From positions 124,001 through 188,000 of the forward strand of contig JAANDG010000111.1 of NCBI GenBank assembly GCA_036852015.1: DNA of 64,000 bases. The letters run 5' to 3'. A program made the position numbers and the translations under genes. Below are positions 130 through 61,285 of the stretch, one piece after another. The stretch comes from Pelodera strongyloides. Its lineage: Eukaryota > Nematoda > Chromadorea > Rhabditida > Rhabditidae. Position 1 is the first letter of the stretch, and every line of letters starts with the position of its first letter. The notes beneath the pieces were generated by a model that saw nothing but the letters and a program-made list of their open reading frames with translations, ran no database searches and was not told the origin of the DNA.

Positions 130-1245
130 GAAACGAAAGAGAATTGAACTGCTGGAAGGAAAAACGAATGACGAAGTGAAGTGAGTGGTCATTTTTTTTG
201 TTGTTGCTGCTTACGTCAAGTTTTCTAGGTGTCTAGGTGCACAAATATTTCTAGGTGTCTAGGTACCGTAATTACAGTAATACCGTAGGCCGTTCTTATG
301 AGTGCCTGAGTGCCCGTTGTTTATCGGTCGGCCGTTTTTGCAAACGGTAAGCATTGTTTGCATGTGCTTCATGGAGATCAAAATATATAATTCGATTCGA
401 TTAGTTACTTCATTTTGTCTGCGTGATAGTTGAAGCGCGTCTGGATTCCGTCTGGATTTCTTTTCTGAACACTTTTGTTTCTAGATTGGAGCCACTGGAC
501 GTGGACCAAGAAGGCGATGAACTTTTCAGAGAAACCAGGGAAAACATGCAAGTTTTGCAACATTCGAATTAGGCCTTCAATCCACGCCTGGTGATAACAT
601 AGTTAGATCCTCAGACTTTTTTTGAATAATGGAAACGTCTACAGAGAATCAGTAAAATAAATTTGTGTTATCTAATGATCCCGTATCCGTAGTCGTTCGT
701 ATATGGCTACACATATACTGGTTGTGTTGGTTAAATGAAAACCTGAGACAAATTGACAAATTAATGAACCTTTAATCGATGGACATTCTCTATCGTAACT
801 TACTTTTTCTTTGTTTAGTGTCCGAGCCCGTCTTTTGAAGGAAGAGGAAGTTGAGAAAGTGGAAGATGATGAGCAGAAGCCTCCTTGTTTGGATCCCGAG
901 TGAGTGTTTATTCATTTGTTTCTTGTATGTATTATGTCCTGTTGGTTCCTTGTGCCGTCAAGTTTAAAAGTCGGTTTATCGCAAGAATCTCTAAAGTGCT
1001 GCTCTTTTTATTCCTTTTTAGTTGCTTTGTGTTGAGATATTGTTATTATATATGTACTTACGCTAGGTCAGTTGTGTATATTAGGTTAGGTGTATTGTTA
1101 TGCTGGTTTCTTTGAGTTTTTGATTTGGATGCTCAAATGTGTATGTTTGTATTGACACTTCAGAAGCATGGCTTTGCCCATTTACGCGCAGCGCAAACGG
1201 AGAACGGAGCAACGAAAAAAAAGAGCGCAAATTGAAAGCCGCTGA
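130..1245 (+). CDS. Gene 1: 3' part of a macro-family gene (5' end outside window)
   Basis: The window opens inside the intron that follows macro exon F: bases 1-100 resemble the same intron at about 6055-6140 and 14745-14790. Exons seen: 130-180 (basic, KRKRIELLEGK), 485-547 (EPLDVDQEGDELF, with a GC donor at 548), 819-899 (acidic, KEEEVEKVEDDEQ) and 1164-1245, which ends at TGA. All junctions are phase 2. The terminal stretch is homologous to the gene 4 exon 24027-24134, but a one-base frame difference brings in an early stop, so the original C-terminus is lost or replaced by a short basic tail. A further old exon homologue lies at 1510-1544. No domain other than basic and acidic segments is visible here. 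It may be a live truncated gene or a decaying copy. Confidence 0.55.
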
Positions 1246-2122
1246 AAACCAGAGGAAGCTGAACGAGCGTCCGAGACAACAGAAGCCTCGTGATCTTAAG
1301 TGAATCGTGAGTGAATATGTTCAAGTTAAACTTGCTTGTGGATAGGGCCTCCAGTTAGTTCAACGTATACTTTGCCTGATGGGAATGTGCATACAATGTT
1401 GAGCAACTGATCTAGGTGGATAATATGGTGAATGCCACTTGTGGCAGAAAACTTGAAGGCTGAAGCATCCGGTCCACGTCCACAATGTCCCATTCCTTTA
1501 TCTGTTTAGGAAGCGAAAAAAACAGAAAAAAGACGAGAAGCTATGTAAGGATATTGTGGTAACTGGACCACTGAACGACGTGATTGTAAGAGGCATCTAA
1601 GATTGCTAAGTCTCTTACAACTCGCGTAGATTCCAGTTCAGAGCACTGACACTTTGTTTAGCAAATTGGAACTGTTCTTGTTCCTGTTGTTGTTGGTTAC
1701 GTCCTAAGATTAGACGTAATTAACCGTTTAGTTTCATTAGTCTGTTTCTTTTATAGAATGTTAAGCGTGTATGTATTGTTGGATTTTATTCGATTTCCAT
1801 TGTTAGTTTGTATATGTTTTGTTTCATTGTTTATAAATGCGTCGTTTTTTACTGTTTGCATATTTACTGGAAAGTATTGTTAGTGGGTTGTCTACCTTTT
1901 CCTATTTTGAATTTTATACAGTATCCCCTATTTGCTTATTGTTTCCTGTGCAGACCGTTTTTTGCGTCTTTCGAATTCTTTTTTTTGTTTCCTGTGCTGT
2001 AGACCTTTTTTGCGTCTTTCGAATTCGGTTTTTTATTACTTTGTTTGCTGCTATCTTTTTACCTATCGCTAATATTGGGAACGTAAATGCAACCAACGTT
2101 TCCTAATCTATTCTACATTCAG
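1246..2122. other. Spacer between genes 1 and 2
   Basis: Holds a homologue of the terminal basic exon of gene 4 at 1510-1544 (acceptor TTTAG, donor GTAAGG) and 3'-UTR-like sequence around 1560-1600 that is also recognisable after genes 2, 3 and 4. About 1760-1850 is closely copied at 8120-8210. A TATAAA-like word at about 1832 is followed some 50 bases later by the conserved TGGGTTGTCT element (1884-1910). The only open frames are T-rich and unsupported. Confidence 0.5.
1884..1910 (+). promoter_or_regulatory. Conserved spacer element, copy 1
   Basis: The core TGGGTTGTCTACCTTTT recurs with few changes in each spacer before a THAP-bearing gene: 8251-8280, 15893-15910 and 25050-25077. Each time a polyA-signal-like word lies nearby upstream. 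It could be the GU-rich 3'-processing element of the upstream gene, a promoter or 5' element of the next gene, or simply sequence kept from duplication. Confidence 0.35.
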
Positions 2123-2374
2123 ATGGAGGGGGTCTGCATTCAGATGGAGACCCCGAAAGAGCACAACAGAACGAAACAACGCGTCAGAACCTGCCAGGTG
2201 GATTTCTGTCGGGCAAAAAGTGTGAAATGGACGCGCATATATTCGATGACGAAAACAAAGGAGCTGGACCACTGGCTGGAATTGAAAACTGATGGATTCG
2301 AACAAGCACTGAGACGAAGTGGAAAATTTATCTATGTTTGCTCAAAACACTTTGATGAGGCTGAGAGGGTTCAG
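2123..2374 (+). other. THAP-like C2CH zinc-finger exon (gene 2, first)
   Basis: A symmetrical phase-0 exon. It reads RTCQVDFC, then W, then DHWLELK, and ends VCSKHFDEAE. Zinc ligands C-x4-C and C-x2-H are 43 residues apart, inside the THAP range, and the W in DHW sits where THAP domains have their invariant W. The AVPTIF box that closes classical THAP domains is missing, so the match is called THAP-like. The exon starts with ATG directly after CATTCAG. Confidence 0.7.
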
Positions 2375-5300
2375 GTAATTCTTAAAGATTCCGAGTGTAG
2401 ATCCCGAAAGTGTCACGAGTTTAAATTATGTAAAGTAGGTTTGTTTACTTTGCGTTTTATTAGTCTATACAAGTAATTTCAGCAGAGCTGTGTGGGTTTT
2501 CTACGACTAGTAGAGGGAGAAGTCGCCGAGTTTTGTGGTGATGCTATCGTCAGCGATTGTCTTCCACATGCACAAGGTATGTTTATAGAAATCTGTACTA
2601 TGACATTGAACGAACATACAAACGAAAACATTTCACCAAAGTAATAAAGAGAGACACAGAGGCGGGTCCCGAGCAAGATGGGCGCTTTCTTTGTGAACCT
2701 GAGACTCGTCATACCTTACGGTAATCGATACATTGTCAATATTTAATAATATTTGGACCAGCCAGTGGTGTCGACCAGCCCCAGTCGGTGTGTAGTGACG
2801 AGCGCTGCTACTCACCACGCACTTGACGAGTGTTCAATCCCCGCAAGCGGCTGATTCTGATTGCACCGACCGTGTGGCAAAAAACGCTACAAGGTGAAAA
2901 CTTGGGAAGGGTTCTTGGATCAGGGCTGGCCACCCATTCCGTATCCAAATATGGAATTCATCTCTGGAGTGCGCTACTGCAGGGACCCCATTAGGAAAGT
3001 CCCAGCTTTAGCTTTTAACATCAACAATTATTCTTATGAATACCACTTTATTCAAACATACATTCATCACACATAGACTTAATGTAGAATCCACGGTCCC
3101 ATTTTCTCAGAAGTCGCGGCTCTTTTGCACTTGATGCACATAAAAACGATTTTTTTTTGCATCGTAAGTTGTTTCCGTTTAGCTGGAACTAGCTTCCCCG
3201 AAGATGTTAAACTAAATCAGTTGATACCTGAAGCCCGAGATAGGACAGTTGCACCCGCATCGAAAAGGGACATGAATACGAATGAACACGAACATATCGT
3301 AGGTGGAAACCTTCCTTTCTCCCTCCAGTTCAAGTCACATATTTCATTTTGAATCTCTTCGAATCTGAATTGTCCTTTGTGAATCTTGATGCGCCACGAA
3401 AGCAATAAATTATTTGTTTTACCCTGCATGCAGATGGAGACCGCGGAAGATGATGCCACAAGGAAACGACGAACCTGCCAGATGGATTTCTGTCGAGCAA
3501 AAAGTGCGAGATGGAGACGCATATACTCCGTCGAGAAAGCCATTCAACTGGACCACTGGCTGGATTTGAAAAGTGGTGGTTTCGAACAAACACTAAAGAT
3601 GACTGGACATTTTATCTATGTTTGCGCAAAACACGTTGAGGAGGCTGAGCTCAGGAAGCAGGTAAACCAGAACAGTTATTCTTATGAATACCAGAAATAT
3701 CGCGAATGTTTCACAGACGATTATTATGACGAAAAGCTTACATCCAATGGTATTACGAAAAATACTAATTTTAGCAGCGTATTGCCAGTTTGTTGCAAGT
3801 AGGTGGAGAGATCGCGGAGTTTCCTGAACCATGCAGTGTTGTTGTAAACGATCTTCAAGGCATGTTTTACCATTTTGAGTTTGGTCGTAGCCTTAGACTG
3901 TGTGGCCAGCCAACTATCTGTCGGAACAACCTTTCACATTTTCACATTAGCATATTGCACTGGTTTGCAGGGCTAACACCATAGCACCTTCTCGATTGGG
4001 GTAAACTTGAAGAATATGACCCCACTGAAGAATACTACCCCAAATGTTACTATCCCAAATGTTTGGGGGGGGGGGGGGTAGCATTTTGTAGAGTTAGCGT
4101 GCAAAGTACTACCGCACCATTGAACAACACTACCCCGTTTGACATTTTATCATCCCGTCAAGGGGTAGTAAATTGCAAGAAAGGGTAGTGTTCTTCAATG
4201 GGGATGGTGTTCTTCTATATGGGGGGTAGTGCACTTCAGTGGAGGGGTAGTGATCTTCAAACCCTAGGTAATCTTGAATTACGCTACCACCTACATCCCT
4301 ACATGTGAAAATACTACCTTTTATTTTACAAAATATTACATATATTGACCCATAACTTTTACTACCCCGTGGGAAAATTACAAAATACCACCCCTACCAA
4401 TTAAATATGACTACCACACAATTGAGTATCATTACCCACCATTGAATATCACTATCCCACCAATTGACTATCACTACCCCACGATTTGAATATCACTACC
4501 CCACCAATTGAATATCACTACCCCACTGTAGTGTTTTGTAAAGACAGGGGGTAATATTTTATAAAATGGGTATTATTTTGCATGGGTTAATGTTCTTCAA
4601 AAAGTGGTAATGTTCTTCAATCCAAGGGTTAAGCATATCAAAATTCGGAATAGTATCAATATATTTCGGGAAATCAATCAACACACGAGATATATGCCCA
4701 GACGAGGAGAGTGTCTATGCCTAGTCATGCTTATTTTCTTTAACGGGACAGGAAAAAGCCTTTCTCAACTTAACCGGACATTCAGTCGGGAATATTACTG
4801 CGAGGATGTCATTCCTTAACATCAAGAACTTGCTGAGTTTCCGTTGTTCCCCTTAAAAATGTTCCATAGTCAGGTAAGAAACGTCAAAAGACATCCAAAA
4901 TGATTCTGGAACAGTTTGCCGGGGAATAACTGCTCTGTAACGGAGACAGATAAAAAGAAAAATGGTGTGGTTACAGTGCCTTTGGCTCAACCTTTAATCG
5001 TTTAGTTACCGGTAGTTGACAGCTGAGTGGACATCCAGCTCTTCCTTTCTTTTCTATGAACCACCTAATCAGTTGGACATTTCGAATGAAGACAACTACC
5101 CTTCTGTTTCAGCACTGAGCTGCTCCAACCGTAATTCTTTTTTTCGTGTCCTTTTCACCATTTCACCTTGTAGATATGGTGATCTTACGAACTAGTGGTC
5201 CGAGATGTGAAACACGTGGCGTTCCGACAAGAACTGAAGAAATTGCATTGCGATTGTGTTACTGGAAATGCTTGAAAAGCGCGGTGGATCGGGGACTGCT

Positions 5301-7468
5301 ACAAATTGTGAGTCAGAGACCGATTTTGGACTAAAGAATTATTACGTTATATCGGTGAAACGTATAATAAAATATTAAGACACTATTTTGGACGAGTGTG
5401 CATTCTCAAATGTTGTGTATTTCTAGGTTACTTCGGTGTGTAAAGTGATAATTTACATTTACTTGATCTTCCCTTTCTAGGGTTTCCCACTTATTGGCAC
5501 TGGTCTGGGCGGATACCCGCGCAGTGAAGCGCTTACGGTTGCATTGGATACTATTCTTGCGTTTTTTGAGGCGAACCCAGTTAAGGTACTGTATTTGTCT
5601 GTTATTGCTTTTTAATGTTGTCGTCGTGGTTCCAGATCACCGGCTTGTTTAGAAACAATATAATTACTGTATTGAAAATTGAAAATCTAAGGCGACTATA
5701 TTTTTTGGGTCGGGAAACGAAGAAAACTCGTATTTAGGGCTTGAATGTCTCAATTTGTGTGTGTGGAGCGGGCGCGCGAGATGTATTGGAATTCGGAGCA
5801 ATTTTGATGGGAAATGAACTGACGTTTAAAATGGAAACGGGCACAGTTCATTGCATGCGCAGCACAATGGAAAACACTTACATGACACTGCTGGGATTGA
5901 GTCAGAAACCAAGGACAGCATACGAATTACCCACCACCAAAATCCGGTTCCCTTCTTATGTCAAATACTGGACCAAGGAGGAACAAGCCGTTCTAGGAAG
6001 TGATTACCGGTAAGCAAACGCTTGTATCCTTTTATTTTTACAGTTGTTGTTGGACTTCGGTTTTCGATTACTTACGCACTCGCAATTGGGTGCACAAGCA
6101 GAATTAATGGAAGACGCTGTCCACGAGTTTTGTTGATCTTGAATTCTTGATACGATTCTTTCCTTTTAAAGGATCGCAGTCACTACAAATTCGTATTTTT
6201 TATTCGCTTTTCATTAAATATTCAAATATGTGAAGGAAACTACGATTCCAGCACCAAAGTACGGCAAAACGAACTCAGGGAGAGGAATCCCTGTGTATGA
6301 GTTTTACTAGTATACCGTAGTTATAATTGCCCGTATAGGGTTACATAATAAATACCCTGCAGTGATAAACCACGCGCCAGGTGTAACACTGCAGGCTGTT
6401 CACTCTCCAAGTACCGCTGGCAATTGCATATATGCACCGGCGACGGTCATTTACCAAAAACCCATTTTCATTGATTTCTCTCCCTGAGTTCGCTTTTATG
6501 TGGTTTTTTACTGACTGCATGTTGTTTTATAAATCATCTTGCATCTAATAAATACCGAATAAAAAAGTTGAATTTGAAGTGACTGCCTTCCTTTAATGAG
6601 AATAAATCGTTTTTTTTTTAGAAAACGGAAGAGAATTAGACTTCTGGAGCGAAAAGCCAGTGCTGAATTGAAGTGAGTTGTTATTTTTTTGCTTAAGTTA
6701 GGTTTTCTAGGTACAAGAATTGTACAATAATTAGTAATACAGCAGGTCTTTCTTATGAGCGTCCCTTTGCTTGACAATCCGGTGACTTTTTGCAAACAAT
6801 ACTCCGCACTTTGGTGACTTTGGTACATTTTGCACGAGTTCCCTGGAGATCAAAAAATATATTCCATTCTGTTAGTCACTTGGTATTGTCTGTTGGATGG
6901 TTGGGGGAAGCGCGTCTGTATTTTTTCTGGATACGTTTTTTTTTAGAATAGAGCCGCTTGATGAGGACCAGATACAGGGCGCTGAACTTTTCAGAGAAAA
7001 CACGTTAGTTTTACAACATTCGTATGTGTTTTACCCTAAACATTTGAGAAGGAGCCTAGCATAATTATAGTTAGTCCCTCACAGACTTTCTTTGAACATT
7101 GGAAAAGTTGTTTTGAAAAAAGCAGAGTTTTTGGACTTGACAAAATGATGAATCCTCTCCGTAGGCGTTCCTATGATGGCTACCTACACGTTGAATGATT
7201 GTGCTTTTAAACCAAAACCTGAGATAAATCGATTTAGTGTCCGTCTCCTCAAAGAAGAAGATGTGGAGAAAGTGGAAGATGATGAACAAATGATTCCTTG
7301 TTTGGATACAGAGTGAGTGCCTATTTATTCAATTGTTTTTTATTTGCTTATATTATGTCATGTTGGTTGCTTGTTCTTATACAAGATCATTTCCGTTTAT
7401 TAGGTGTGTTCTTATGTTGGTGTTTTAGATTTGATGGCCAAAGGCGTAATGACGCTGCCGAAGCATAG
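2123..7468 (+). CDS. Gene 2: THAP-like x2 / macro-like protein, 502 aa
   Basis: Exons: 2123-2374 (THAP-like), 2483-2576 (macro B), 3183-3298 (linker C), 3434-3661 (THAP-like), 3775-3859 (B, GC donor), 5174-5307 (D), 5481-5585 (E), 5738-6009 (F), 6622-6672 (basic KRKRIRLLERK), 6947-7003, 7238-7312 (acidic) and 7429-7468 (tail, stop TAG). They sum to 1509 nt with compatible phases. The zinc fingers read C-x4-C-x43-C-x2-H with CSKHF or CAKHV at the end. The macro core reads GDAIVSD, SGPRCETRG, YWKCLKSAVD and GFPLIGTGLGGYPR. The first B exon lacks the two codons (VN) present in gene 3. ATG 2144, behind a second CAG, is an alternative start. The intron at 3860-5173 carries a minisatellite. Likely nuclear; its ligand is unknown. 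The short tail resembles those of genes 1 and 3 and may reflect decay. Confidence 0.62.
4000..4632. repeat. Degenerate minisatellite (ACTACCCC / ATTGAATATCACTACCCC)
   Basis: Degenerate units of roughly 20 bases built around CTACCCC and CAATTGAATATCAC are repeated in both orientations (TTCTTCAA/TTGAAGAA boundaries), with a G10 run near 4065. It fills the intron between gene 2 macro exons B and D. No coding signal is seen. Confidence 0.75.
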
Positions 7469-8424: not shown

Positions 8425-8984
8425 ATGGAGACCCAGGAGACCCCGAACAAGCACCACAAGATGAAAAAGCGCGTCGCCATCTGCCAGGTGGATTTCTGCC
8501 GTGCAAAAAGTGTGAAATGGGCACGCTTGTATTCCATGAAGAAAGCAAAAGAACTGGATTACTGGCTGGGGCTGAAAACTGATGGATTCGAACAGGCACT
8601 GTGGGAAAAAGGAGATCATATATATATTTGCACAAAGCACTTTGAGGAGGCTGAGCGGGTTCAGGTAATTCTTTTCTGCCTATGGCTAACCTTGGAAACT
8701 TAGATGCAACAGTGTTTTCTTATTTATTCTTCATTCAGATGGAGGGACTCTGCATTGATACGGAGGAAGAGCACTTGAGGATAAAAAATTGCGTCAGAAC
8801 TTGCGAGATGGATTTCTGTCGAGCAAGAACCGTGCAATGGATGAGCTTGTCCTCCATGACGAAAGCAAAGCAACTGGATCACTGGCTGGGATTGAAAACT
8901 GATGGATTCGAACAAACACTGAAGAGAAATGGACATGCTGTCTGTATTTGCGCAAGGCACTTTAAGGAGGCTGAGAGGGTTCAG
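8425..8984 (+). other. Two adjacent THAP-like exons (gene 3)
   Basis: Two phase-0 exons, 8425-8664 and 8739-8984, are separated by a 74-base intron. Both read C-x4-C (ICQVDFC; TCEMDFC) and C-x2-H (ICTKHF; ICARHF), and both begin with ATG after an ATTCAG acceptor. They can be joined in frame, or the second ATG could be an alternative start. Confidence 0.68.
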
Positions 8985-11900
8985 GTAATTCTGAAGATTC
9001 CCGAACGAATATATATCCCTCAAAAAGGTGCACCCTCAAATTGTTACTTTTAAATCATAACAAGTAAACTGTATTCTGGACGAAAGATCATTGAGGACGT
9101 CCTTCATCCCATTTTCTATTTCATTAACATGGTAGTTGGGAGCTTGTCATAAGACCACCACATACACCTTTTTGAGCATTAGTGAGCCAAGCCTTACACA
9201 ATTATGATTACGCCGTGCCCCTTCAAGTAAACCGGTGGAGAAAAGATTTGAAACAAGAAACAAGTTGCACCCAATTTGTCGACCGCTGAAAGCCGACAAG
9301 AAAAGGGACCTTTGAGCCCCACAACAACAACAACAGTCGCAAAACCCCTGATTTCTACATGCTATTTCGTTTGGAGCGTGCCCGCGCACTCCCAAATAAA
9401 ATCGAAAACAGGCTCTGAGGTAAAGTGTGTCTAATTGCGAACCGCGTGCAAGAGCTTGCTGTACGACGACTTTGTCGACCTCCGACATGGACCAGGTCGT
9501 CGACCAGCCGCTGTGATAAGGAATCGAAAACCGGCTCTGGAGTATGGGACTACTTGCGAACCGCTGTAAGAGTAAGCAAAATGCGAACTGTCACTTAAAA
9601 TACAAGAAGGCGAAAATTTATGCAGAAGACAACAGTGACGTGCTCCAGAGCCTGTTTTCGATTCCTTGTCACAGCGGCTGGTACCTGGTCCATGTCGGAG
9701 GTCGACGAAGTCGTCGTATAGCAAACTCTTACAGCGGTTCGTAAGTAGTCCCATCTCCAGAGCCGCTTTTCGATTCCTTATCACAGCGGCTGGTCGACGA
9801 CCTGGTCCATGTCGGAGGTCGACGAAGTCGTCGTACAGCAAGCTCTTGCAGGCGGTTCGCAATTAGGCACACTTTACTCCAGAGCCTGTTTTCGATTCCT
9901 TGTCACATCGGCTGGTCGGCGACCTGGTCCATGTCGGTGGTCGACGAAGTCGTCGTATAGCCTGTTGCAGGACGGTTCCCAAGTACTCACACTTTAGTTT
10001 TGTTTGGACACACCCCCTTTATAAAAAAGCATTTTGAAATAAGCAGTTTTGCCATGTTTGTGCGTTCAAATGGCCTTTTTCTTGTCGTGGACTCTCCGTG
10101 ATCCACAACATAGATTGGGTGAAACTGCTTCAAATCGAATTTCTCCCTAAGTTTATTTCCCCGCCCGTGGGTTGCACTAGCGGTAATTATGTATGGTTTG
10201 GCTCACTATCTCCTCAAGAAAGTAGTTTTTTTTCACGCGGTGGACCTATACTAATGGCTGGCTCGCCAACCACCATGTTTAGGACATTGGTTGCTAATGG
10301 GGTAAAGTGACATCGATGTTTTGCATGCTGCATGATATTTTCAACATGAAGTCAGCTATGTACTTCGTCTGTTACGATTCTAAAAAAATCGTTCGAAATT
10401 AACAATTCGAGGATGAACCTTTACTTATGACACGCACTGTATGTGTGAATTTGAGAAAGTAGCTGAATGTATTTTGTGTTTTTCTCAATCAAATCAATGG
10501 GCAACTTTGGCCGGTCGCGGCCGTTATATGGCGGGTGCCATATGAATATGACTACAAAAATTACACACGGCGTCCCACCCATTTCGGGCGCAGTGTAGGC
10601 CAGGTGCCGGGGTGGGGTGCGCCTTGTGCCCATTTCGGGCGCAGTGTAGGCCAGGCGGTGCCGGCGTGAGTTGCGCCTGGTGTAGGTGGCCCACACTTTT
10701 CGGGCCCAGTGTAGGCCGCGCACCGGCCAAGTTTTCTCAGTGAATGCCGTCCATTAAGAATGTTCGTTTTTGTATTCTTTTTGTGTTCATTGTTATTGCG
10801 AAAACCAGTATTTTCAGCAGAGCCTTGTGGGTTTTCTACGAGTAGTAGAGGGAGACGTCGTCGATTTTTGTGGTGATGCTATCGTGAGCGATGTGAACGA
10901 TTGTCTTCCTGAATCACAAGGTATGACAGAAATCGGTCTATATAGCAATGGACAATTACATACAAATGAAAACATTAAACCAAAGTAATGAAGAGAAAGA
11001 CGCACGTGCGGGCCCTTAACAATAGGACCTTCTGTCAAAGTGAGCCTCAGTGTTGTTTATGGTACATCGATACTTGGCAAATATGTGATATTACACGTCA
11101 GCTAAGTGGCACTTGAAAATTGATTTTTTTTTGTAGCTGGTTCATAAAATAATCCCGTTTAGCAGAGGATAGACGCCCTGAAGCTATGAACCCGTTTGTA
11201 ACGGAAATGAATCAGTTGTCGCACGAAGACTTCGATAGGACAGTCGGACCTGCATCGAAAATGAGCAAGGTAAGAATGACACAAGGTGCAAACTTTCTTT
11301 TCGACGTCCCCGGACTAACAGGAACTTCGGGATTCAACCACTATCTCGCGCATCCGCACTATTCGCTATTCACGATTATGAAAGGAATATCCTGAAACGG
11401 GGACACTGAAAAGGCAAAAGCGAAAAGGTAGTTGATGCATGATACTATCGTCATACATCATGCATCAATTAATGCCATACGTAAAAGTGTTTCAATAACC
11501 GTTTAAATTGCGGTCTCCCGATCTCGGAAGGTCTAAAGAAAGTATTTGAATAGGCACACACATAACCACATGAAACCCACAAAATGTCCCTCGCTATACA
11601 GGAACGATGTCAAAGAACCTTTCGTTTTTATAAGGTAGTTATAGCGAGGCTGCATATATTGAATGTGAGTGGAGTAACAGTCAGGCGAGCCCAAACAAGG
11701 TTGACTTACTGACATTCACGCAATCTATCTTTATTTTGGGTGGAACTGTGGTATGTCATTTTTGTTGCGCGGGAAACGTGCTGGATGAAAACAAGCATTC
11801 CATTTAAAAGCACCTAACGTTTTTTATTTTACTGCATTCAGATGGAGACCCCGAACAAGCACCACAAGATGAAAAAGCGCGTCGTTACCTGCCAGATGGA

Positions 11901-16234: not shown

Positions 16235-16315
16235 ATGGAGACCCCTGAAGACGAAAACGTGGCGAATAGCGGTACGAGACTTCTCAGAGGGTGCCACAGA
16301 AAAGTTGAGGCGCAG
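16235..16315 (+). other. THAP exon remnant without zinc ligands
   Basis: This 81-base phase-0 exon starts with the family ATGGAGACC after TTCAG and ends with the family AEKRKxEAQ-type border (RKVEAQ). About 50 codons including both CxxxxC and CxxH are missing, with the frame kept. Gene 4 therefore enters the macro domain almost at once. Confidence 0.7.
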
Positions 16316-34700: not shown

Positions 34701-35749
34701 GTTAGTTATTCTAGAACTCAAGAGGAATATGAAATTCGTCTCCAGAAAACATTGGAACGTGCGAGACAGAGGCTGGCTGAGGAGTTAGTTTTTTGTTTTT
34801 CATTTTACAGTACTTACTATATACATAATCATATATCACTCGTAACGTGGAAAAGTTTACATGTGCGTGTTCCGTTTTTCAATTGTAATTGGTGGAATGT
34901 GGAATGAAAATGGATTTAGCATTAATATAAATGCAATAGTATGCAGTAACATGTAATGTACTGTAATTGTATGGTCAGCACAGCAGAAACATGGCTGTAG
35001 CTCGTTCTCACTGCATAATTTTGCGTTGTAGAATAACTCGTCGAAGTATTACACTTTATGTGTTACTTCAGAACGGAAGAGGAAAGACAGCGTCGTTTAT
35101 CCGCAATAAGAGAGACGAACAGGAAAACGTTGGCAAAAGAGTGAGTGGAAAAGTCGTTGTGTTATTTTATCTGACAAGGCGAGCCAGCCGCTGAATCTTA
35201 GGATTACAGAAGTTTGTTCATGCGTTTGTTGCGCCATACACGACTGTTTTGTATACTAGTCACCGAAGTTGTTTACCCGAAATACGCAGGCATAGTTAGT
35301 TGATGTGTGCCGACGGCTGTATTTTGTTAAGCAATCGTGTTTCGGGACGATCACATTTTTTATCAAGAAAACTTTATAAAAAAAAATTAACTTATCGGCG
35401 ATTTCATCCGATCCGAAACAGTTGCTCATCTTGACGTTTATATTTATTACCAGCCGTTCGAAGAGCCCTACGGGCTCTTCTCCGACTGGAGGAACCGGCC
35501 TTCGGCCGATTGTTACCCTATTAAAAAAAAATGAATTTCTACAACGGTAAAATACAACTTTCGTCTTTCCTACTATTTCTTTCTAAGCCCCTCTTTTTCC
35601 CGCTTGTTGGATTGTATGACCTACCACTCCTGCTCCTACTCTCTATCCCTCTCTCTCCCCCTCTCTCTCTCTGTCTCTCACTCTTCTCTATATCGTTCAT
35701 AACATTCAATTTCCTCATCTCCTTTTCACGGTTTCTCAACTCGCGTCCC

Positions 35750-35796
<47 letters not shown>

Positions 35797-36041
35797 ATCT
35801 CTCTCTCTCTCTATCTATCTCTATCTATCTCTATCTCTCTCATTCTTCTCGCTATTCCCACATTGCGTCCGTTCATGTCTTTCTATTTCCTCATCTCTTT
35901 TTCACGCTTTCTCGCATCGCGTCCCTTCTCTCTCTCTAACGCTCTCTCTCTCACACTCTATCTATCTATCTACCTCTCACTCTTCTCTCTATTGTTCATA
36001 ACTTTCTATTTGCTCATCTCTTTTCTTTCTGACATCGCGTC

Positions 36042-36083
<42 letters not shown>

Positions 36084-38261
36084 CCGTGAAACTTATGCCC
36101 TTTACGTTCACACGTCTACAAAGTTATTTATGATTGGGGAAACGTACAAAATGAGTCTGGATTCCATTCGACTAATGGTAGCATGCAAATTTGCCATCGA
36201 AGGTTCTCTATGTGTAGAGCAGATTGTTCCCCTTATGATAAGCTAGCATAGCTCAACCGGTAGAGCGTTGAACTGTGAATGGAGAGATTGTGCGCTGATG
36301 TGGGTTCGAATCTCGCCAGCGGCAAAGATTTTGTATGCTCTTTCGATCGGAGAATTTTCTTTATGAAGGGATTTCGTTGTGCACATAAAAACAAAATCAT
36401 AAACAAAGTCTGTGACAAAGTCATAAACAAACTCTTCTCCTTTATATAATAAGATTTTAGAACCCCGGAGCAGTGCCAACGACGTCTTCAGCGAAGCAGA
36501 GAATTCTATCAGAAGCAGAAGGCGTAAGTAGAGATAGGATCTTTGACATGGGGGGTGGGATGGTGTAATACTGTATTACTTCTTTAATCGGTACTTGTGT
36601 TTGTTATAGTTTGGTTATTTCCAGCTTACCGAGTTCTTGTGCTGTTTGTTTAATATTTATGGTAGTATTTTGTCACGTTGTTTTGTTTTGTTTAACCGAC
36701 TGATTGATGATTACTTTTTAGATCGCCAGAAGAGAATGAAAAACGCAAAGCGTACATGAGAGAATGGAACAAGAGACAACGGAAAACCGAGTAAGTTTTG
36801 TTTTTCGGAAAGAAATGAGTACTGTATCTTGGTCGACTCAGTACTTGATTTGAAATTTCGAATTCCGTATGTTATGTCGGACATTTGTTTTTCAATTCTT
36901 ATCTATTATCTGCGATTATGTGTATTTCGGTATAAGCTGGCGCGTAAATGTTTATGTAATGTAGTGAATCTGTTGTCTATTTGTAATAGAATATAGGAGC
37001 GCGTGTCATAACTCTTTAAACAACTCTTTGTTTAGAACACCGGAACAACGCGAGAGAAGACTGATTAGTGAGCGGGAGCGTCGTCATCGATGGCTTAATA
37101 AGCTGTAAGTTGGCCTTATTTTTTTGTCCGGTTTTTTTGTTTAGGGAAAGCTGTGTCTGAGAACTAGAATTGACAGCAGCTAATGATTACGATACCGTAA
37201 TTACGGTACAGTAATTGCATCGTGGTAATTACCTCAGTAAGTACGCATTGACAGAATCATACAGTACTCTGGACTTCGCTTTAGAAGCCCTGAGGCGTTT
37301 GAAGCGCGCCGCCTGCGACGTGCCGCTCAGAATGCGAGGAGAAGGGAGTGGTGGAAGGAGATGCAGAGACAGAATAATCTTCCCGTTACGTAAGTGGTAT
37401 TTACGAGTTGTCCTGGTTTTTAGATTTCTTTACTGGTTTTGTAGTGTTTTGTACGTAATTATTTGTAAGAATAGTGATGCCACATGTCAGTTAATGATAC
37501 CGATTTTATATTTTTGCTTATCTTATTATATAAAGGAGAAGAGTTTGTCACGGGTTTGTTTTTATGTGCACAACGAAATCCCTTCATAAAGAAAATTCTT
37601 CGATCGAAAGAGCATACAAAATCATTGCCGCTGGCGGGATTCGAACCCACAGCAGCCCACAATATCTCGATTCCCAGTCCAACGCTCTACCTGTTGAGCT
37701 ATGCTAGCTTATGGGAGGAGGATCTTATAGGAGATAGAAGAGCAATTGCAATAGCAAATTTGCAAATTTGCATGAAGTCCAGAACCATATTATACGTTCC
37801 CACATAAACGTAAATGAACATCTTTTTTACGTTTGAAGAAATTCCTTTTTTTAAATAGGGTAACAATCGGCCGAAGGCCGATTCCTCCAGTCGGAGAAGA
37901 GCCCGTAGGGCTCTTCGAACGGCTGGTAGACTATAACATATATTTATGGGCATTTGTCACGTCTTGTTTGGGAAATAGTTTTTATATAACTGAGTCGGTG
38001 TGTAAGTTGCATACAAACACTTTTCGAGTGGATTTGCCCGCCTTCGGAAGCTTCAAAAGTTTGTTTCAGGGAAGCACTATGTTTGTTATATTCTATCATA
38101 AATCTTTTAGTGGCCGGAAAACTCCGAAAAAGAAGAAGAAAAAGTCGGGAGATGTATGGGATGAAAAGTCGAGATTCAGACAGTCGAAGCACAGTGATCC
38201 AACTACTGAAGCTATTGCCAAACTGGTGCAATTTGCCCCCGAAACTGATCAAGCACACTGA
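31779..38261 (+). CDS. Gene 6: macro-like / AT-hook / STPR-like protein, 515 aa
   Basis: Exons: 31779-31866 (B, starts MSVLRLLEGDVTEFCGDAFVNDV), 32083-32154 (C), 32408-32535 (D), 32769-32879 (E), 33169-33464 (F), 33723-33815 (AT-hook, KRGRPLK), 33991-34056, 34329-34427 (acidic), 34715-34783, 35072-35140, 36461-36523, 36722-36790, 37036-37104, 37285-37389 (STPR-like) and 38111-38261 (KKKKKK tail, TGA). They total 1548 nt in frame. The ATG is 16 bases behind an acceptor, so the coding region begins with the macro domain. The glycine loop is altered to AFPLISTGLCGYPR. Likely a nuclear DNA-binding protein. Two copies of a tRNA-like element in opposite orientation flank exons 36461-37389. Confidence 0.78.
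33723..33815 (+). other. AT-hook exon of gene 6
   Basis: Encodes KEQRKRGRPLKLDAP, a canonical R-G-R-P AT-hook flanked by basic residues, which binds the minor groove of AT-rich DNA. It directly follows the macro module, in phase. Confidence 0.75.
35637..36082. repeat. (CT)n microsatellite
   Basis: Three long CTCTCT blocks with TATC variants. The long SLSLSL frame across it is an artefact. Confidence 0.92.
36243..36324 (+). other. tRNA-like sequence (SINE head or tRNA pseudogene)
   Basis: D-arm-like TAGCTCAACCGGTAGAGCG and T-arm-like GGGTTCGAATCTCGCC (A- and B-box matches) are separated by 45 bases without a clear anticodon stem. The acceptor ends CTAGCA/AGCGGCA pair only in part. A second copy on the other strand at 37626-37708 shares flanks well outside the tRNA region, so it is a mobile repeat rather than a functional tRNA. 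Confidence 0.6.
37520..37926 (-). mobile_element. tRNA-derived dispersed element, copy 2 (no CT tract)
   Basis: Reverse-complement copy of 35450-36455 without the microsatellite. It includes the same hairpin head (ending at 37926) and a tRNA-like core at 37626-37708 with B box GGGTTCGAATCCCGCC. Internal similarity covers the head, the core and the 3' tail. Confidence 0.65.
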
Positions 38262-39707: not shown

Positions 39708-42700
39708 ATGGGCATCATACGGGTTCTCCCAATGGAGATAGACGAATATACGGGTGATGCGATTGTTGCAGAAGCAAGTCACTATTTTGAGCCCGGTAAG
39801 ATTATGTAATAAGACTTTTCAATACACACCTAGTGAACTTACATTACAGAGTACCTTACATAGTTGGGGAGGAACATCACGAATTTTTTTGTCTTTTATA
39901 CTTAGCGAGCTCATATTCACGAGTGTTTCAGTAGAGTATTCAATGCTTATGTAGTATTCCGCAGAGGTGACTAACTGATTTCACCCGAGGCCATATTCAC
40001 CACCACGTTTCTCTCGGGGAATTATTCCCTGCGGACAGAAAATAGCATTCTAGTGTGAGACGCGCAGAGAAAAAGGCGGGGAATTTCCCCGGGGGAAAGG
40101 GTAATTGAGTGGTGAATATGGCCTCAGGAGACAAGTTTAGACTTCCCGGGTGGTCTATTGGAAGGTATCATTGGGACAGGACAGATCTCCTATGCACGAG
40201 ATTTCTACGCCCTGGTTTCTTTCAGAAGTCGGCTGCGATGAAGTAGAGGGTGTTCCCGGTGACGCTGCGGTAACTGATCTGGCCACCTTAGTGGACCAGC
40301 TAACCCATCGTCAACTAGAGGCCGCGGTTAGCGCACATATAAAAGAATCCGAGATGGAGAATGTGAAGTGTGAGTGTTTTTCTTTGGACACTGACTTAAG
40401 ACGACTTTTTGCATGTTCGGCTTTTCAGAAAATTTAATTGGTATTATGACTGGCTCCTTTGCTCCAAATAGTGCATTAACAGCTGTTTGTGTATGTACCA
40501 TGTGGATCATGTTCGTCGTGAGTCTGTGTTATTTATTGGTTTATTATTTATTGGATTGTAGATCGTAATTTCAGATGTTTTGTGTACGAATGCTCCCCAA
40601 TTGAGAGTGCCCTGTGTACCTAGAAGGACTGAAGAAATGCTGCTTCGATTATGTTATTGGAAATGCTTGCAAAAGGCCTTGGAAAACGAATTGCTTGAGA
40701 TTGTAAGTTACCGCTTATCTTACTGTATGTTATGTTACTTACATTAGCTGCGTATCCTACTGTATGTTATGTTACTTGCGTACTTGAGCATTTTATGCAG
40801 TTGCCAAGCTATTTACCTATTATTTTGTTAAACGAGAATTACTGTGCGTGACATCGTGACTAGTTATATTCAAGGCTGTACGTGTGTAGGTGATACGCAA
40901 CATCACAACTTAACTTCAACAACTTTACAACGTAACTTCAGGCGTTCCCTTTGATTGGCACTGGGATATTATGTGGCTACCCCCGCGCACAGGGCTTGAT
41001 GGTTGCAGTCGATACGATACTCGCATTTTTCGAGGCTCATCCGTCTTCGGTAGGTAGTTTATAAACGAGGTACCTTATATTTCCTGCTCTTATTATAGTT
41101 TAGTTTATATAGGAATTGCAGCAGTTTAAGTGATGTTTATGATTATGATTCTCGCAATTACGTAGTTGCATACATTACGCTGAATTTACAGGTGTTGCGA
41201 GTAACTATCTGCATCAGTGGACCATCGGCTAATGATACTATGTGTTTCGCCGGCCACCTGCTTTGGCCCGTTATGTCGCGAGATACGAATGAAGCGCTAG
41301 TTCGTCTGCCTTCCCGTGTGCCTATTCTACCGCCGGCATTTGTGTCTGATACGGCGTGTGGCCAACCAGAAGGAGCACCGGTAACGGAGACCACTCGGCC
41401 AGTATTGGTTCTGGACACGACTTACGAAACGACCGAGGCGCCTTACCGGCAAGCTCTAGAAGATAACTATTGGCGTGCGGCTCCAGAATTGGACAGACCA
41501 GTTCCGAAAGCATACGTTTTGTCGTCGACGACGACCTCCTTTTCGTCGTATGTACAGTATTGGGATGCGGAGGAAGGAAAGAAACGAACGGCCGAGCGGA
41601 TGAACAGATTTCGGGAAAGACTGTGAGTGAGCGAAGTTTTAAGAGTAGAGAGTGAGAGAGAGAGAGTAGAGAGAGAGTAGAGCGAGAGAGAGAGTAGAGA
41701 GAGAGACTAGTTGCCGTGCTTGCCGCAGTCCGTTAAAGAAGCGCCATCGGTGTGCAACTGGAATTTAGCCTGTGACCTGAAAACCATGTCAGCCACACTT
41801 TCATCGCGCGGCGATTGCACGCAATTTCAATAGTATACGAGAATCGGGGACATTTAGCGATTATATTAACGAATGAGAACAGAGCACAGTTTGCATTGAA
41901 TGTGTGGGAGCAACGTTTTCTAGCCTACTCTTCACAGACTTGGTGTCGTACAGTAAGCCTAAGCCTATGCCTTTGAATGCTCGATTTCAGAACTGAAGAG
42001 AAACGGCAAGAAATTTTAGAGAAAGGGCGTGAACGTTCTCGTCGACGGCGAGAACGACTGCGAACGGAAGAGTGAGTTTATAATTGTATGAAATAATTAG
42101 CTAATTGCTTTTAATTAGCAATTAAGCGTTTGTGAGTGTCCATTAATTGTCTTTTCACCTAAAGCAATTATCGATGCGTTGGTAACTTTAGAACACGGTA
42201 ACAAAGTAATTGCATGCTCATTAGGTGTGGCACATGCTTCTGGTTACATATAACAAAATTATATTGGTATATGTAAAGAAGCGAAGTTTTTAGGGTCGAA
42301 CGCGAGAGAGAGCTTAACAGACAAAGGCGCCAAAATTTGTGAGTCACTTTTCCAAACTATCCGTAGGATCCGTAGGAATCACCACTCCAATTCCCTCGGG
42401 GAAATAGTTCCTGGGGACAGAAAATAGCATTCTAAGGTGAGAGACGTAGAGAAATAGACGGGGAATTCCCCATGGGGAATTGAGCGGTGAATATGGCCTC
42501 GTGACACATTAACCAAGAATATAGACTGGCATGCGTTGGGAGTTTTAGGGCAAAGTGATTATAAAGTTAGACTGAAAATGAAAAATTGGGGGTTTTGGTC
42601 GAGCGGGGATCGAACACGAATCTTCGGCCATCATGGCCAATGCATTTAGTTAGTTTAGTACCACTGCGCTACGGGCACCGGGCACCAATTATTATAAAAC

Positions 42701-45700
42701 GGGTATAGTCCAGTCTCCTCCGTTTTCGTTCTGTCAATTTTCTCACGTTTGTGACTGTCTAGGTAGGAGATGTGAATGGAGGCCAGGCTATTGGTAGCTT
42801 CTTCATCACTTCAAACTTCATCTTTTTAAACCGAAATACTGGCCGGTTTTTGAAATGCATCTCAAGTACTTGCATTCATGTGCGTTTATGCAAAGTGGGG
42901 TCGAATTGCGGTCTAGCTTTTATTCTAGTTTACGCTCATTTGCATAAGCTGCGTAAGAAAACAGGTGTACGCGATGCGTTTCAAAAACCGGCAGGTGTTT
43001 CGCTTTAAGTGTTTCGCTTTTTACCTTCTTCATCACTTCAAACTTCATATTTTTATTTTTCTAGATCCCAGGAGCAATATCTAGCAGAAAGAGCAAGAAG
43101 CCGAGAGCATAATCGAATGAGGCGAGAACAGGAGTAAGTTGGCACCGTTAAAGCGGTATAATAACCGTTTTTTTATTTTAATTATGTTTTATATCTGCTT
43201 TCCATCAAGTCACATATAATGCTGATGATATCGAAATGTCTATTGGTTAAAGAGTATTTAGTGCAAACATCGATTATGTCCCAGTAGGTAGCACTGATGA
43301 AAGTTGCGCACAAGGAGGGGCGCGGCGCACCTGCTAATGGGTGCGCGGGACGTTCCCACAATGTGCCACTAGTGTTCAATCCCAGTTGACCCACTTTTTA
43401 CTTGAGGCGCAGCTGGTGCGGCACATGTGGTTCTGCGCATCGTTAGCGGCACGGACCACGCATGCTAGAGTGGTCGCGGCGCTCACGTGCAGACCCTTTT
43501 GTGCGCGTCAATGGCGCGAACTTTTAAGTTGAGAACTGAAATTTGACTTCCAGAACTGAAGAAGAATATGAAATTCGTCTGGCAAAAGCCCGAGAATATG
43601 GTCGAATGAAGCGGCGGCGAATCACAACCGAGTATGTTTTGAAGTTCTCTTCATGTTGACGAATTGCGTAGGATAATAAATCAATCTTTTACGCTTCAAG
43701 AGCGTTCACCTTTATTCAAGGGTGGAAATACAGTTTCAAAGTTTGCTTATGCCATGTTCCGCAGAGGTCCTGAGCAGTAGGCGACGAGTTCCAGATGACA
43801 AATTGCTCGACGTCTTCGGGCTAGGGCCAGGAGGGACGTCGAGCAATTTGTCTAAGCCTTCATAGGATACGTCTATATGTGTGAGACTAGCGCTTTCAGT
43901 CCCAGTACGGAACAATACGAGGCTGAGCTGGAAAAATCGCGAGAAAATTCACAAAGGTATCGGGAACGGGAGTAAGTTGACACTTTTTGTAAGGGGATTT
44001 TTTTAAATTTTCAACTCGCTAACTCGCTTTGCTTGAATTAGAACATGGGCTTACGGCTCAAAGTCATACACTGTTTAGCACAGACCTTTATAGAACAGAG
44101 TCTACATAGTATCGTGTTAATTATTAGTATTCTATGCTGTGCCTTTGGCTATGTGTGTGGCTCATTGCACAGTGAGAAACAAGAATCCGTTACGCTCATA
44201 AAAGCAAAGACCTTGTATGGTCTTCTTCAAAAGACTTTTTAATAACAATAGTCAGTGCGTAGTGTCGTAGCACTAATTGAAAGAAGGGCCAGATTGTCTA
44301 GCCACTTGATAATAAACGGTAATACATTTGTCAACTTTCAGAACTGAAGAAGAACATAAAATTCGTCTGGAGAAGGCTCGAGAATATGCACGAAAGAAGC
44401 GTGAGCAAATCATTGAGTAGGTTTTTACTTCTCTTCTTATTGACGCATCACATTTGCTGTTATTTGCTGTTAAAGCGTAATACCGGCCGGCTTTTGAAAC
44501 GCATCTCTAGTACTTGCGTTCCTATGCATTTATGCGAAGTGGGGCCTAATTGGGGTCTAGTTTTTATTCTAATTTTTGCTCATTTGCATATGCTGCATCA
44601 GAAGGCAGGTGTACGCAATGCGTTTCAAAAACCGGCCGGTATTTTGCTTTAGCAACAGTATCAGTAGGGTTGTCTGTAGCGGTCACCAAATGGTTTCCAC
44701 TTGCAGTGTTTGTACGTGTTGGTGTGTTTCTAGAAACAAAGAGCAATACCAAACTGAATTGACAAAAGCCCCAGAAAGTGAACGCAAGAAGTGGGCGCAA
44801 CTGTAGGTTTGCATGTAAAATAGCAGGTTCTCAGGGCATGCGTATGGTGCCTAATTCTACAATTTGTCGTTTTGAAGATGTAGCACTAAAACGTTCATTT
44901 CTTGTCAAAGCTAACTCTGTACTAGTGGGCATCTAGGCGCCACATTACGGAAGCTATATGATAGGTTCAGTTGTCTGAGAATATCGCTTCATTTTACAGT
45001 ACCCCGGAACAATACGAAGCTGACCTAGCAAGATCTCGAGAAAATTTGCGAAAGAGTCGGGAACGGGAGTAAGTTGATACTTTTGCTGAGGAAATTTTCC
45101 TCCTTTTGAAGACTTTTCCTTGATGAACACGAAAAATGAGGACGCTTTTTCCACTTTTTTTCACAGGACCGGTGTAGAACCGAGTCTAGAATCCTATTCA
45201 TTATCTTTCTTTTCTTCATTCTTACTATTTACTATTCATTATTCATTTCTTCAAAAACTGAGTAATGAGTAATAACTAATAACAATAGTCGTACCACAGA
45301 AGAACGTTGCGGGATAGTCGTACCACACAAGGACCACGTGCCAATAAAACACTAATTTTTTACTAACTTTCAGAACTGAAGAACAATATAAAATTCGGCT
45401 GGAGAAAGCTCGAGAATATGCTAGAAAGAAGCGGGAAATGCAGCGAGCTGCCAAAGAGTACGTCATATAGTATTTATGACGCCCGCAAAGTTGTCGGAAT
45501 TTCGGGCAGTCAGCTTGCATTGTTGGCAACCGGGATAAATGTCTACCAAAGTCTGAAATTCTACGACGCCTAGTTATCAAAATCTTTATTAACAAACATA
45601 GATATTTATTAACAAACAAATATTGCGGAACAAGCGACTAGAATGAATAATTCTCAATAATTCTACTTCACATTTTAGTAAATAATGTTGCCCAGGCCTA

Positions 45701-46708
45701 TAGCCTATAATCGTAATAGCTTATGATTTATTTAATGTAACAATATATGTATATGTATATGCAGAGCCGCCGAACGAGCAACCCCGACTGAGGCACTTCT
45801 TGGAGTGATTGATGCACACCTCGGACAAGGGTTATTTGATTTTTTATTTTATTTTTATTTCGCCTATGTTGTTAAAATAAATTCCTTTGTAGGTCTTTCT
45901 TGTGGTCTTCGAAGACTTTTTAATATTTAATAGGTTTTCTAATAAGTGTATGGCTTGTTCCCTAGAGGTCCTGATTGTGAGTAGAATTAATTAAGAGTTT
46001 CAGGAGACAGATTGCTATACTGTGACCACGCCCTGTGGTGTTATTTAATAAATAAATAAATATACTAGATTAGTCAGGATTTGTATGTGTGGGGATCGCC
46101 CATTTTTCATTTCTGTTTTACAAATAATTCACTTTAGTCCAATTAACGGGAAGGAACGAAGGCCGCGTCAGAAAAAGAAGAGTAATGGGGAACCCGCTCC
46201 TACTGTACCAAAGAGGCGTGGTAGACCGCCGCGAACGAATGGCTCCTCTGACGGACAGAGTGGCGGGAATTTGAATTTGCCGTCCGGCACTGTTGTTCTG
46301 GATCTCAAAGGGGAGGAAATTGAAGAGGGGTAAGTATATTTGCATATAGCTGCAAGGATAGAAAAAAAGGAGTCTGTCATCTTAGAGTTCGGAAAGCCAC
46401 TCTAAAAAAATGTGCGAATTTGCACACATATTCAAAACCCCTGACGCACTCTCCGAGCACCATTTTTTTGTGCGCTAACCGGAGTTTCAGCTGTCAACGT
46501 GAATGGTTCCTCATTTTCGCTATTTGTGAATGTACAACAGCGCTACCTTTTTGAGTATTAGGATTTATGTTGATGAGTAATGACGTCATATATTTCTTGT
46601 CTGCATGCCCAATAGAATTCCAATTTCAATTTATTACAATTTCCGGTGTTTAGGGCGGAAGAATCGTGTGATGCTATGCGTGAAGACACTGAAGTTGAAG
46701 TTTCTTGA
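39708..46708 (+). CDS. Gene 7: macro-like / STPR-like / AT-hook protein, 617 aa
   Basis: Exons: 39708-39795 (B, MGIIRVLPMEIDEYTGDAIV), 40226-40369 (C), 40575-40702 (D), 40942-41049 (E, AFPLIGTGILCGYPR), 41192-41622 (F, enlarged), 41991-42071, 42294-42338, 43065-43133, 43554-43631, 43900-43971, 44342-44416, 44734-44802, 45000-45068, 45374-45457 (STPR-like), 45765-45830, 46138-46329 (AT-hook, KRRGRPPR) and 46654-46708 (acidic tail, TGA). They total 1854 nt in frame. A stop at 46331 would end the protein inside the AT-hook exon if the last intron were retained. F carries about 45 extra codons, rich in Pro/Thr. The AT-hook lies C-terminal to the repeats here, but N-terminal to them in gene 6. Confidence 0.78.
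39986..40126. mobile_element. MITE family C copy (GAGGCCATATTCACCAC termini)
   Basis: Left GAGGCCATATTCACCAC, right GTGGTGAATATGGCCTC: exact inverted termini, with GGGGAATTATTCCC and GGAATTTCCCC inside. A second copy with a worn left end is at 42374-42500. Confidence 0.8.
41648..41708. repeat. (GAGAGTAGA)n short repeat
   Basis: Purine-rich GAGAGAGAGTAGA units directly after the donor of gene 7 exon F. Confidence 0.85.
42374..42500. mobile_element. MITE family C copy
   Basis: Shares GGACAGAAAATAGCATTCTA, the GGGGAATTCCCC interior and the right end GGTGAATATGGCCTC with 39986-40126; the left terminus is diverged. Confidence 0.72.
42596..42687 (-). other. tRNA-like sequence (probable tRNA-derived SINE fragment)
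   Basis: On the minus strand, GCCCGTAGCGCAGTGGTA (A-box/D-arm-like) and GTGTTCGATCCCCGC (B-box/T-arm-like) are about 40 bases apart, with GGCCATGATGGCC between them. Acceptor pairing is poor and the anticodon arm is not credible, so a functional tRNA is unlikely. Confidence 0.5.
42826..43008. mobile_element. MITE family A copy
   Basis: Left TTAAACCGAAATACTGGCCG, right CCGGCAGGTGTTTCGCTTTAA. It lies in an intron of the gene 7 STPR array. Confidence 0.72.
43670..43852. repeat. Dispersed repeat D copy with terminal hairpin
   Basis: About 155 bases (TCTTTTACGCTTCAAGAGCG to GACAAATTGCTCGACG) recur at 52165-52328. Here it ends in an inverted repeat, GACAAATTGCTCGACGTC..GACGTCGAGCAATTTGTC (43797-43852). 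Confidence 0.68.
44470..44653. mobile_element. MITE family A copy
   Basis: Left TTAAAGCGTAATACCGGCCG, right CCGGCCGGTATTTTGCTTTA. It lies in an intron of gene 7. Confidence 0.75.
46138..46329 (+). other. AT-hook exon of gene 7
   Basis: Encodes RRPRQKKK and then VPKRRGRPPRTNGSS, a canonical AT-hook (R-G-R-P) with a second R-R-P-R basic patch, followed by an acidic end (GEEIEEG). The same kind of motif sits in gene 6. Confidence 0.75.

Positions 46709-61236: not shown

Positions 61237-61285
<49 letters not shown>

Follow-up and report, generated by a model that had tools for sequence, protein, structure and literature searches.

A tandem cluster of macro-core genes with THAP-like fingers and STPR-like repeats in Pelodera strongyloides, and related cores beside Helitron sequences

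A stretch of 64,000 nucleotides from the nematode Pelodera strongyloides (assembly GCA_036852015.1, contig JAANDG010000111.1, positions 124,001–188,000; C111:124001-188000 in our numbering, and hereafter the window) carries a row of plus strand genes that join a macro-like core to several kinds of DNA-binding module, which raises the question of what these genes do and where they came from. The reading we prefer, at a probability of roughly one half, is that they form a tandem family of nematode host genes for nuclear DNA or chromatin binders, most likely derived from a module at the N-terminus of a Helitron protein. What is new here is the link of the macro core to Helitron Rep/helicase sequence: outside the cluster, the set of macro and F exons was found in the genome (159.9 Mb, 1171 contigs) only at two loci, C53 and C237, both times beside such sequence. 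The preliminary description of the locus, made from the window alone, had overlooked that this core also precedes Helitron genes, a finding that shifts the probable origin of the family; it had likewise missed units farther upstream and a helix-turn-helix (HTH) exon resembling that of Tc5 in one gene.

The gene cluster and its macro core

Six genes (g1–g6) lie within window positions 2144–46,708 (Table 1). Seven adjacent plus strand genes with a macro-like core had been described previously; six of the cores are in the window, and the seventh belongs to a unit (u-1) whose exons D, E and F lie 932 to 61 bases upstream of it and whose tail exons begin at position 130. The cluster continues for about 28 kb farther upstream. 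Across 104 kb, our own exon profiles recover 10 units on one strand, nine of them with exons D, E and F; the tenth (u-3) has no F exon, and its E exon is in two parts separated by about 2 kb (L045:536-2700; -19464 to -17300 in window coordinates). Genome searches, the counts of which are lower bounds, gave 8 and 9 matches for F-exon queries, all on C111 and together marking 9 places, and 12 places for a D-exon query, 10 on C111 and one each at C237 and C53.

Exons were placed from splice sites (AG acceptors, GT donors) and reading frames, and then joined. All exon models are open throughout and splice in phase, and the non-GT donors are two GC donors, one after B1b on an optional path in g1 and one after B2c in g2. 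Total exon lengths divisible by three, earlier reported for all six models, are found from ATG to stop in five (g2–g6), with g2 becoming complete (1707 nt) upon addition of a last exon at 14,925–14,982; the 3' end of g1 is not fixed.

The idea of a divergent macro core is borne out by matches to both Pfam and PDB sequences. Pfam Macro (PF01661) exceeds its cut-off of 22 in all six genes (31.7–41.2 bits), and the best PDB match of the g5 core, as a sequence match, is MACROD1 (2x47, E 1e-10). The units share a degenerate macro domain plus the extension exon F. Their matches begin at profile position 40–58 and cover mainly the second half, the region of the first (GGG-D type) loop being unmatched. 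As read from the g5/MACROD1 alignment and the known features of macro domains, the canonical GGG-D loop segment is replaced by an unlike exon C, and the phosphate-loop motif I-x-T-G-x-x-G-Y-P is kept (one residue longer in g6). Without the GGG-D loop region, binding would be expected rather than hydrolysis, so that the domain is probably non-catalytic and would bind ADP-ribose or a protein. MACROD1/MACROD2 and bacterial MacroD-type domains are the closest known systems for this part, matched by the g5 core and by the C237 core (5lbp), but the cluster cores differ from MACROD1/MACROD2 in lacking the first-loop region and in carrying DNA-binding modules. A Pfam macro search of the P. strongyloides genome returned three matches, at C566 and C284, and did not list the cluster, C53 or C237, in which introns split the domain. 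In the protein database no relatives were found for g5 (none of 7992 scored candidates) or for residues 360–549 of g2 (none of 511), in a collection that seems poor in animals, so that neither result is evidence of absence.

The ratio of nonsynonymous to synonymous substitution rates (dN/dS) of the core (D+E+F) is 0.26–0.56 in each of the 15 pairs formed by six similar units (g1–g3 and three that lie upstream), pairs that are not independent of one another; codon bootstraps at or above 1 number 0–18 of 1000. The core of these six units is under purifying selection. Taken with the open, phase-consistent models and the Pfam matches, this upholds the earlier view that the genes are real. The finger exons evolve faster than the core (dN/dS 0.31–1.01, in pairs with dS below 1.2), and their values near 1 in some pairs could be cited, along with the split E exon and missing F of u-3, the mere relic of a finger exon retained by g3 and the two GC donors, for the view that the array is recent and functionless, its exons being in decay or due to chance. 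This explanation, already disfavoured, is highly improbable given dN/dS below 1 in every measurable core pair and five window genes that are open from ATG to stop.

DNA-binding modules of the cluster

Around the core the units vary, with 0 to 3 THAP-like fingers at the N-terminus and STPR repeats, AT-hook-like motifs or a Tc5-like HTH at the C-terminus. The window holds eight complete THAP-like exons across three of its six genes, plus the relic in g3, which is without the finger itself. From upstream to downstream, the units have 2, 1, 1, 2, 2, 3, 0, 3, 0 and 0 complete finger exons by our own exon profiles (14 in total), and the only one found outside the cluster is in a separate short gene (C100:30103-30315). 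The zinc ligands C-x4-C ... C-x2-H are invariant in 15 of 15 exons, eight of them in the window, and the whole g2 protein scores 29.7 bits on the THAP profile (PF05485, cut-off 23.9). To that extent the THAP-like fingers of the preliminary description stand, but single exons are weak and below the cut-off (5/15 at E ≤ 0.1; best E 0.0011, 20.1 bits), and in the four matches shown the alignment stops at profile position 60–62 of 87, leaving the last third unmatched. The AVPTIF box is located in the C-terminal part of THAP. The AlphaFold model of one finger (predicted local distance difference test score 75.5) has the order strand-helix-helix-strand-helix and no clear PDB match. On these sequence features, we term the exons THAP-like rather than THAP proper. 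A Pfam THAP search of the same genome was empty, which says little, as the scores of finger exons are low and the THAP control had a match in 0 of 14 control genomes. The g2 protein also matches Lin-15B (PF25375) at 21.1 bits, below the cut-off of 27.

In 13 of the 15 cluster finger exons (14 complete, one relic) the acceptor directly abuts the start codon (AG|ATG), e.g. at 2144, 3434, 8425, 8739, 11842, 16235 and 26194. The sequence that we take to be spliced leader 1 (SL1) occurs 460 times in the genome at ≤1 mismatch, against 0 for the reversed pattern, which by itself marks the genome as that of a nematode. In an organism with SL1, these junctions permit spliced leader trans-splicing at each finger exon, which would allow isoforms differing in finger number.

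STPR-like repeats are present in g3, g5 and g6. On the Pfam profile (PF21107, cut-off 27) g5 is the only gene above threshold, at 36.3 bits; g3 reaches 16.7 bits and the g6 repeats alone 20.2, and whole g6 is not listed at E ≤ 1. The earlier assignment is therefore supported by Pfam for g5 and falls below the cut-off in the other two genes. With the register set by the exon boundary, E4 and R9 occur together in 6/6 repeats of g5 and in 3/7 of g6. These two residues of each repeat stabilise the DNA-bound form, and STPR is a DNA-binding domain that aids nuclear localisation, according to the excerpted text of PMC4821344. FMBP-1 of Bombyx and human ZNF821 have 23-residue repeats with E4 and R9, as in the cluster, but the excerpts name no macro domain in them, whereas in the cluster the repeats lie one per exon and are joined to a macro core. 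This exon arrangement also means that an empty Pfam STPR search of the genome says little. The AT-hooks noted previously were seen again, by eye, as RGRP motifs in g5 and g6, which we take to be AT-hook-like.

The HTH exon of g3 resembles HTH_Tnp_Tc5 (PF03221) below the cut-off of 22.2. An ORF (open reading frame) at C247 is 48% identical to this exon and itself reaches the cut-off (22.4 bits). Relatives of the exon occur in u-3 and u-2, the one in u-2 being in two pieces, one with a stop. Compared with a Tc5-type transposase, g3 has the HTH exon only, in a spliced, host-like gene.

Among nematode nuclear proteins, HIM-17, LIN-15B and LIN-36 of Caenorhabditis likewise contain a single THAP domain or more than one. 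Six are present in HIM-17, which acts on promoters derived from transposons (PMC9757741, in part), and LIN-15B and LIN-36 co-localise with DREAM (PMC8552245, in part). The portions of text at hand name no macro or STPR domain in these proteins, and the cluster fingers differ in that the final third of the THAP profile has no counterpart in their alignments. No THAP+macro+STPR architecture, no Helitron with a macro domain and no Helitron with STPR was found in the open-licence PMC literature, a coverage from which subscription journals are mostly absent.

Helitron-linked cores and the origin of the family

At C53 and C237, exons B, C, D, E and F are consecutive, with phases as in the cluster (0-1, 1-1, 1-0 and 0-0); at C237, as in the cluster, F ends in phase 2, and its end at C53 is not settled. 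Exon B measures 88 nt from the ATG at both loci and in g5 and g6, and exons D and E of the two loci measure 128 and 105 nt, versus 128–134 and 105–111 nt in the cluster. Downstream of F, on the same strand, lies Helitron_like_N (PF14214), about 4 kb away at C53 (34.8 bits) and about 6 kb away at C237 (50.6 bits, with PIF1 at 189 bits). The C237 helicase stretch is 78.6% identical in nucleotides to C53, which has a like ORF. In the whole genome, Helitron_like_N was found at three loci (C53, C237 and C250), two of which have it downstream of macro cores. The two loci are about 70% identical in the macro region and 76–79% in the Rep/helicase region, and related tandem-repeat arrays flank both on both sides (C53:24-29 kb and 40.6-44 kb; C237:22.2-30.8 kb and from 43.7 kb). 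Their macro domain is nearly full length, with 64.1 bits over profile positions 2–114 at C237 and 51.6 bits over 2–117 at C53. The C237 core matches PDB 5lbp (E 7.3e-13). For the C53 core, 91 of 354 protein-database candidates are related, all listed with Pfam Macro, and those names shown that state an organism are all bacterial; an origin of the Helitron-linked macro domain in bacteria is considered. Extras named for Helitrons in the excerpt of PMC5148889 are endonuclease, OTU, RPA-like proteins and a zinc-finger-like motif, and a macro domain is not among them.

Past the F exon at both loci are short R/E-rich exons of about 23 residues each, recognised by eye. R9 is present in 7/8 of these repeats (p 0.00025, residue shuffle) and E4 with R9 in 4/8 (p 0.0004), counts for which the register was taken from the exon boundary, the repeats are not independent, and a ninth repeat exon (C237, with an in-frame stop) was left out. 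Similar repeats were seen by eye at C250 (95501-104500), and no macro core was seen in these 9 kb.

If the preferred reading is right, the N-terminal macro-STPR module of a Helitron protein would have lost the Rep/helicase part and been tandemly amplified at one locus. Units lying upstream of g5 would have acquired THAP-like exons, and g3 as well as two of the upstream units an HTH; g5 and g6, which have no fingers, are nearest in architecture to the Helitron-linked loci, and so the fingers look like a later gain. The fingers, STPR repeats, AT-hooks or HTH would target the protein to DNA, the macro domain would bind ADP-ribose or a protein, and the gene products would regulate chromatin or transposons. 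The cluster proteins are thus most likely transcriptional or chromatin regulators, possibly of transposons.

The events may also have run the other way: an old host macro-STPR gene was captured as a copy at the 5' end of a Helitron, and the host kept and multiplied the original. Helitrons are known as gene capturers (PMC5148889, excerpt), one of the three Helitron loci (C250) showed no macro core in the 9 kb read, and no Rep/helicase remnants were found in the cluster. A tree of 11 cores, unrooted, likewise separates the cluster (9) and the Helitron-linked cores (2) reciprocally into two clades (100/100), the order of g4, g5 and g6 not being resolved. Capture fits less well with the fuller macro domain of the Helitron-linked cores, which score 64.1 and 51.6 bits from position 2 against 31.7–41.2 bits from positions 40–58 in the cluster, or with STPR-like repeats, seen by eye, at a Helitron locus with no macro core in view. 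These two observations favour transfer from Helitron to host, the direction that we infer, and capture is a tentative alternative, somewhat on the unlikely side.

A third explanation is that C53 and C237 represent one host family gene adjoining a Helitron, duplicated as a segment, so that no Helitron protein would include the macro core. The flanking tandem repeats common to the two loci agree with this, and the joining of macro to Rep is read from genomic sequence. Since the core, the repeats and Rep follow one another on the same strand at each of these loci, and a macro core is present at two of the three Helitron_like_N loci found, we think segmental duplication distinctly unlikely.

Several points weigh against descent from a Helitron protein. 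With 73 C237 ORFs as queries, no Rep or helicase remnant was detected in the 104 kb around the cluster, where the matches were macro exons D and F and pieces of short interspersed elements (SINEs) only, although 55 of the 73 match C53 as a control; the cluster thus differs from Helitron RepHel, of which C53 and C237, with the same macro core, carry Rep (and C237 also PIF1, by Pfam), and the case for descent has to be made from the shared N-terminal module by itself. The separation of the two clades means that the tree does not resolve the direction, and two linked loci would also result if a host gene beside a Helitron were duplicated as a segment. In the Helitron-linked repeats, E4 taken alone (4/8, p 0.06) is not above shuffles; Pfam does not recognise these repeats as STPR, and our own repeat profile gave no repeats at C237 or C53. 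Finally, the remaining 21 of 36 core pairs, all with g4, g5 or g6, have dS of at least 1.5 and were not used, so that the estimate of selection covers the other six units.

A fuller scenario can be drawn, which we consider unlikely as a whole. A nematode Helitron lineage would encode a macro domain at the N-terminus of its transposase; the host would have taken the macro-STPR module, fused THAP-like and Tc5-like modules to it and amplified the product into a rapidly changing array of ADP-ribose readers, bound to DNA, by which transposons or germline promoters are controlled, with trans-splicing onto the start codons of finger exons giving isoforms of 0–3 fingers. Already on the preferred reading, the family would be the first case known to us that ties an ADP-ribose-type domain both to Helitron machinery and to a host array of DNA-binding proteins made from several transposon-like modules, and it would provide a testable link of ADP-ribosylation, rolling-circle transposons and worm THAP-type chromatin regulation.

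Coordinates and neighbouring features

Table 1. Features of the gene cluster in window coordinates (position 1 is the first nucleotide of the window).
Feature	Position	Strand	Content and evidence
u-1 tail exons	130-180, 485-547, 819-899, possibly more to ~1558	+	open, phase 2 to phase 2, as in g1/g3 tail exons
g1	2144..7312	+	exons in order: THAP-like, B, C, (a second THAP-like+B, optional), D, E, F, then a basic/acidic tail; 3' end not fixed; Pfam Macro 36 bits
A1 THAP-like C2CH exon	2144..2374	+	C2CH ligands
A1b THAP-like C2CH exon	3434..3661	+	C2CH ligands
g1 macro exons	D 5174-5307, E 5481-5585, F 5738-6009 (span 5174..6009)	+	
g2	8425..14982	+	exons: THAP-like ×3, B/C pair ×2, D, E, F and a short final one; 569 codons incl. 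stop; Pfam Macro 31.7, THAP 29.7 bits
A2 THAP-like C2CH exon	8425..8664	+	C2CH ligands
A2b THAP-like C2CH exon	8739..8984	+	C2CH ligands
A2c THAP-like C2CH exon	11842..12078	+	C2CH ligands
g2 macro exons D, E, F	13865..14667	+	
g3	16235..24424	+	81-nt relic of THAP-like exon, macro core, tail, STPR-like repeats, Tc5-like HTH exon; 870 aa, 2613 nt; Pfam Macro 32.1 bits
g3 macro exons D, E, F	16928..18310	+	
g3 exon with Tc5-transposase-like HTH	22726..23316	+	Pfam HTH_Tnp_Tc5 (PF03221) 19.5 bits, below cut-off 22.2
g4	25604..30723	+	exons: THAP-like ×3 and short linker ×2, then the macro core and a short tail; 600 aa, 1803 nt; Pfam Macro 36.2 bits
A4 THAP-like C2CH exon	25604..25867	+	C2CH ligands
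A4b THAP-like C2CH exon	26194..26454	+	C2CH ligands
A4c THAP-like C2CH exon	26662..26910	+	C2CH ligands
g4 macro exons D, E, F	28592..29699	+	
g5	31779..38261	+	macro core; AT-hook-like motif; STPR repeats, each in its own exon; THAP-like exons absent; 515 aa, 1548 nt; Pfam Macro 41.2, STPRs 36.3 bits
g5 macro exons B to F (B of 88 nt, counted from the ATG)	31779..33464	+	
g5 STPR repeats, six exons	34715..37389	+	Pfam STPRs above cut-off; E4 and R9 in 6/6
g6	39708..46708	+	macro core; seven STPR-like repeats, each in its own exon (43065-45457); AT-hook-like motif; THAP-like exons absent; 617 aa, 1854 nt; Pfam Macro 36.8 bits
g6 macro exons B to F (B of 88 nt, counted from the ATG)	39708..41622	+	

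The introns of g5 contain SINE-like repeats with a tRNA part (window 35448-37931; Rfam tRNA at 37626-37708), and such repeats also lie between F and the repeats at C237, near 32816-33270. The SINE pieces inside the window are 75–100% identical at the protein level. Palindromic stretches ending AAAGCGAAATAC...GTATTTCGCTTT, which resemble small inverted-repeat elements, were noted by eye at 13690-13860, 28370-28575, 29021-29215, 42836-43015 and 44470-44650. Tandem repeats with units of 122 bp and 74 bp occupy window positions 9643-9996 and 47310-47457, respectively. On the minus strand, at about 56150-62600, is a gene with a DEAD-box-type HRAGRTAR motif (by eye), which looks like an ordinary helicase gene.

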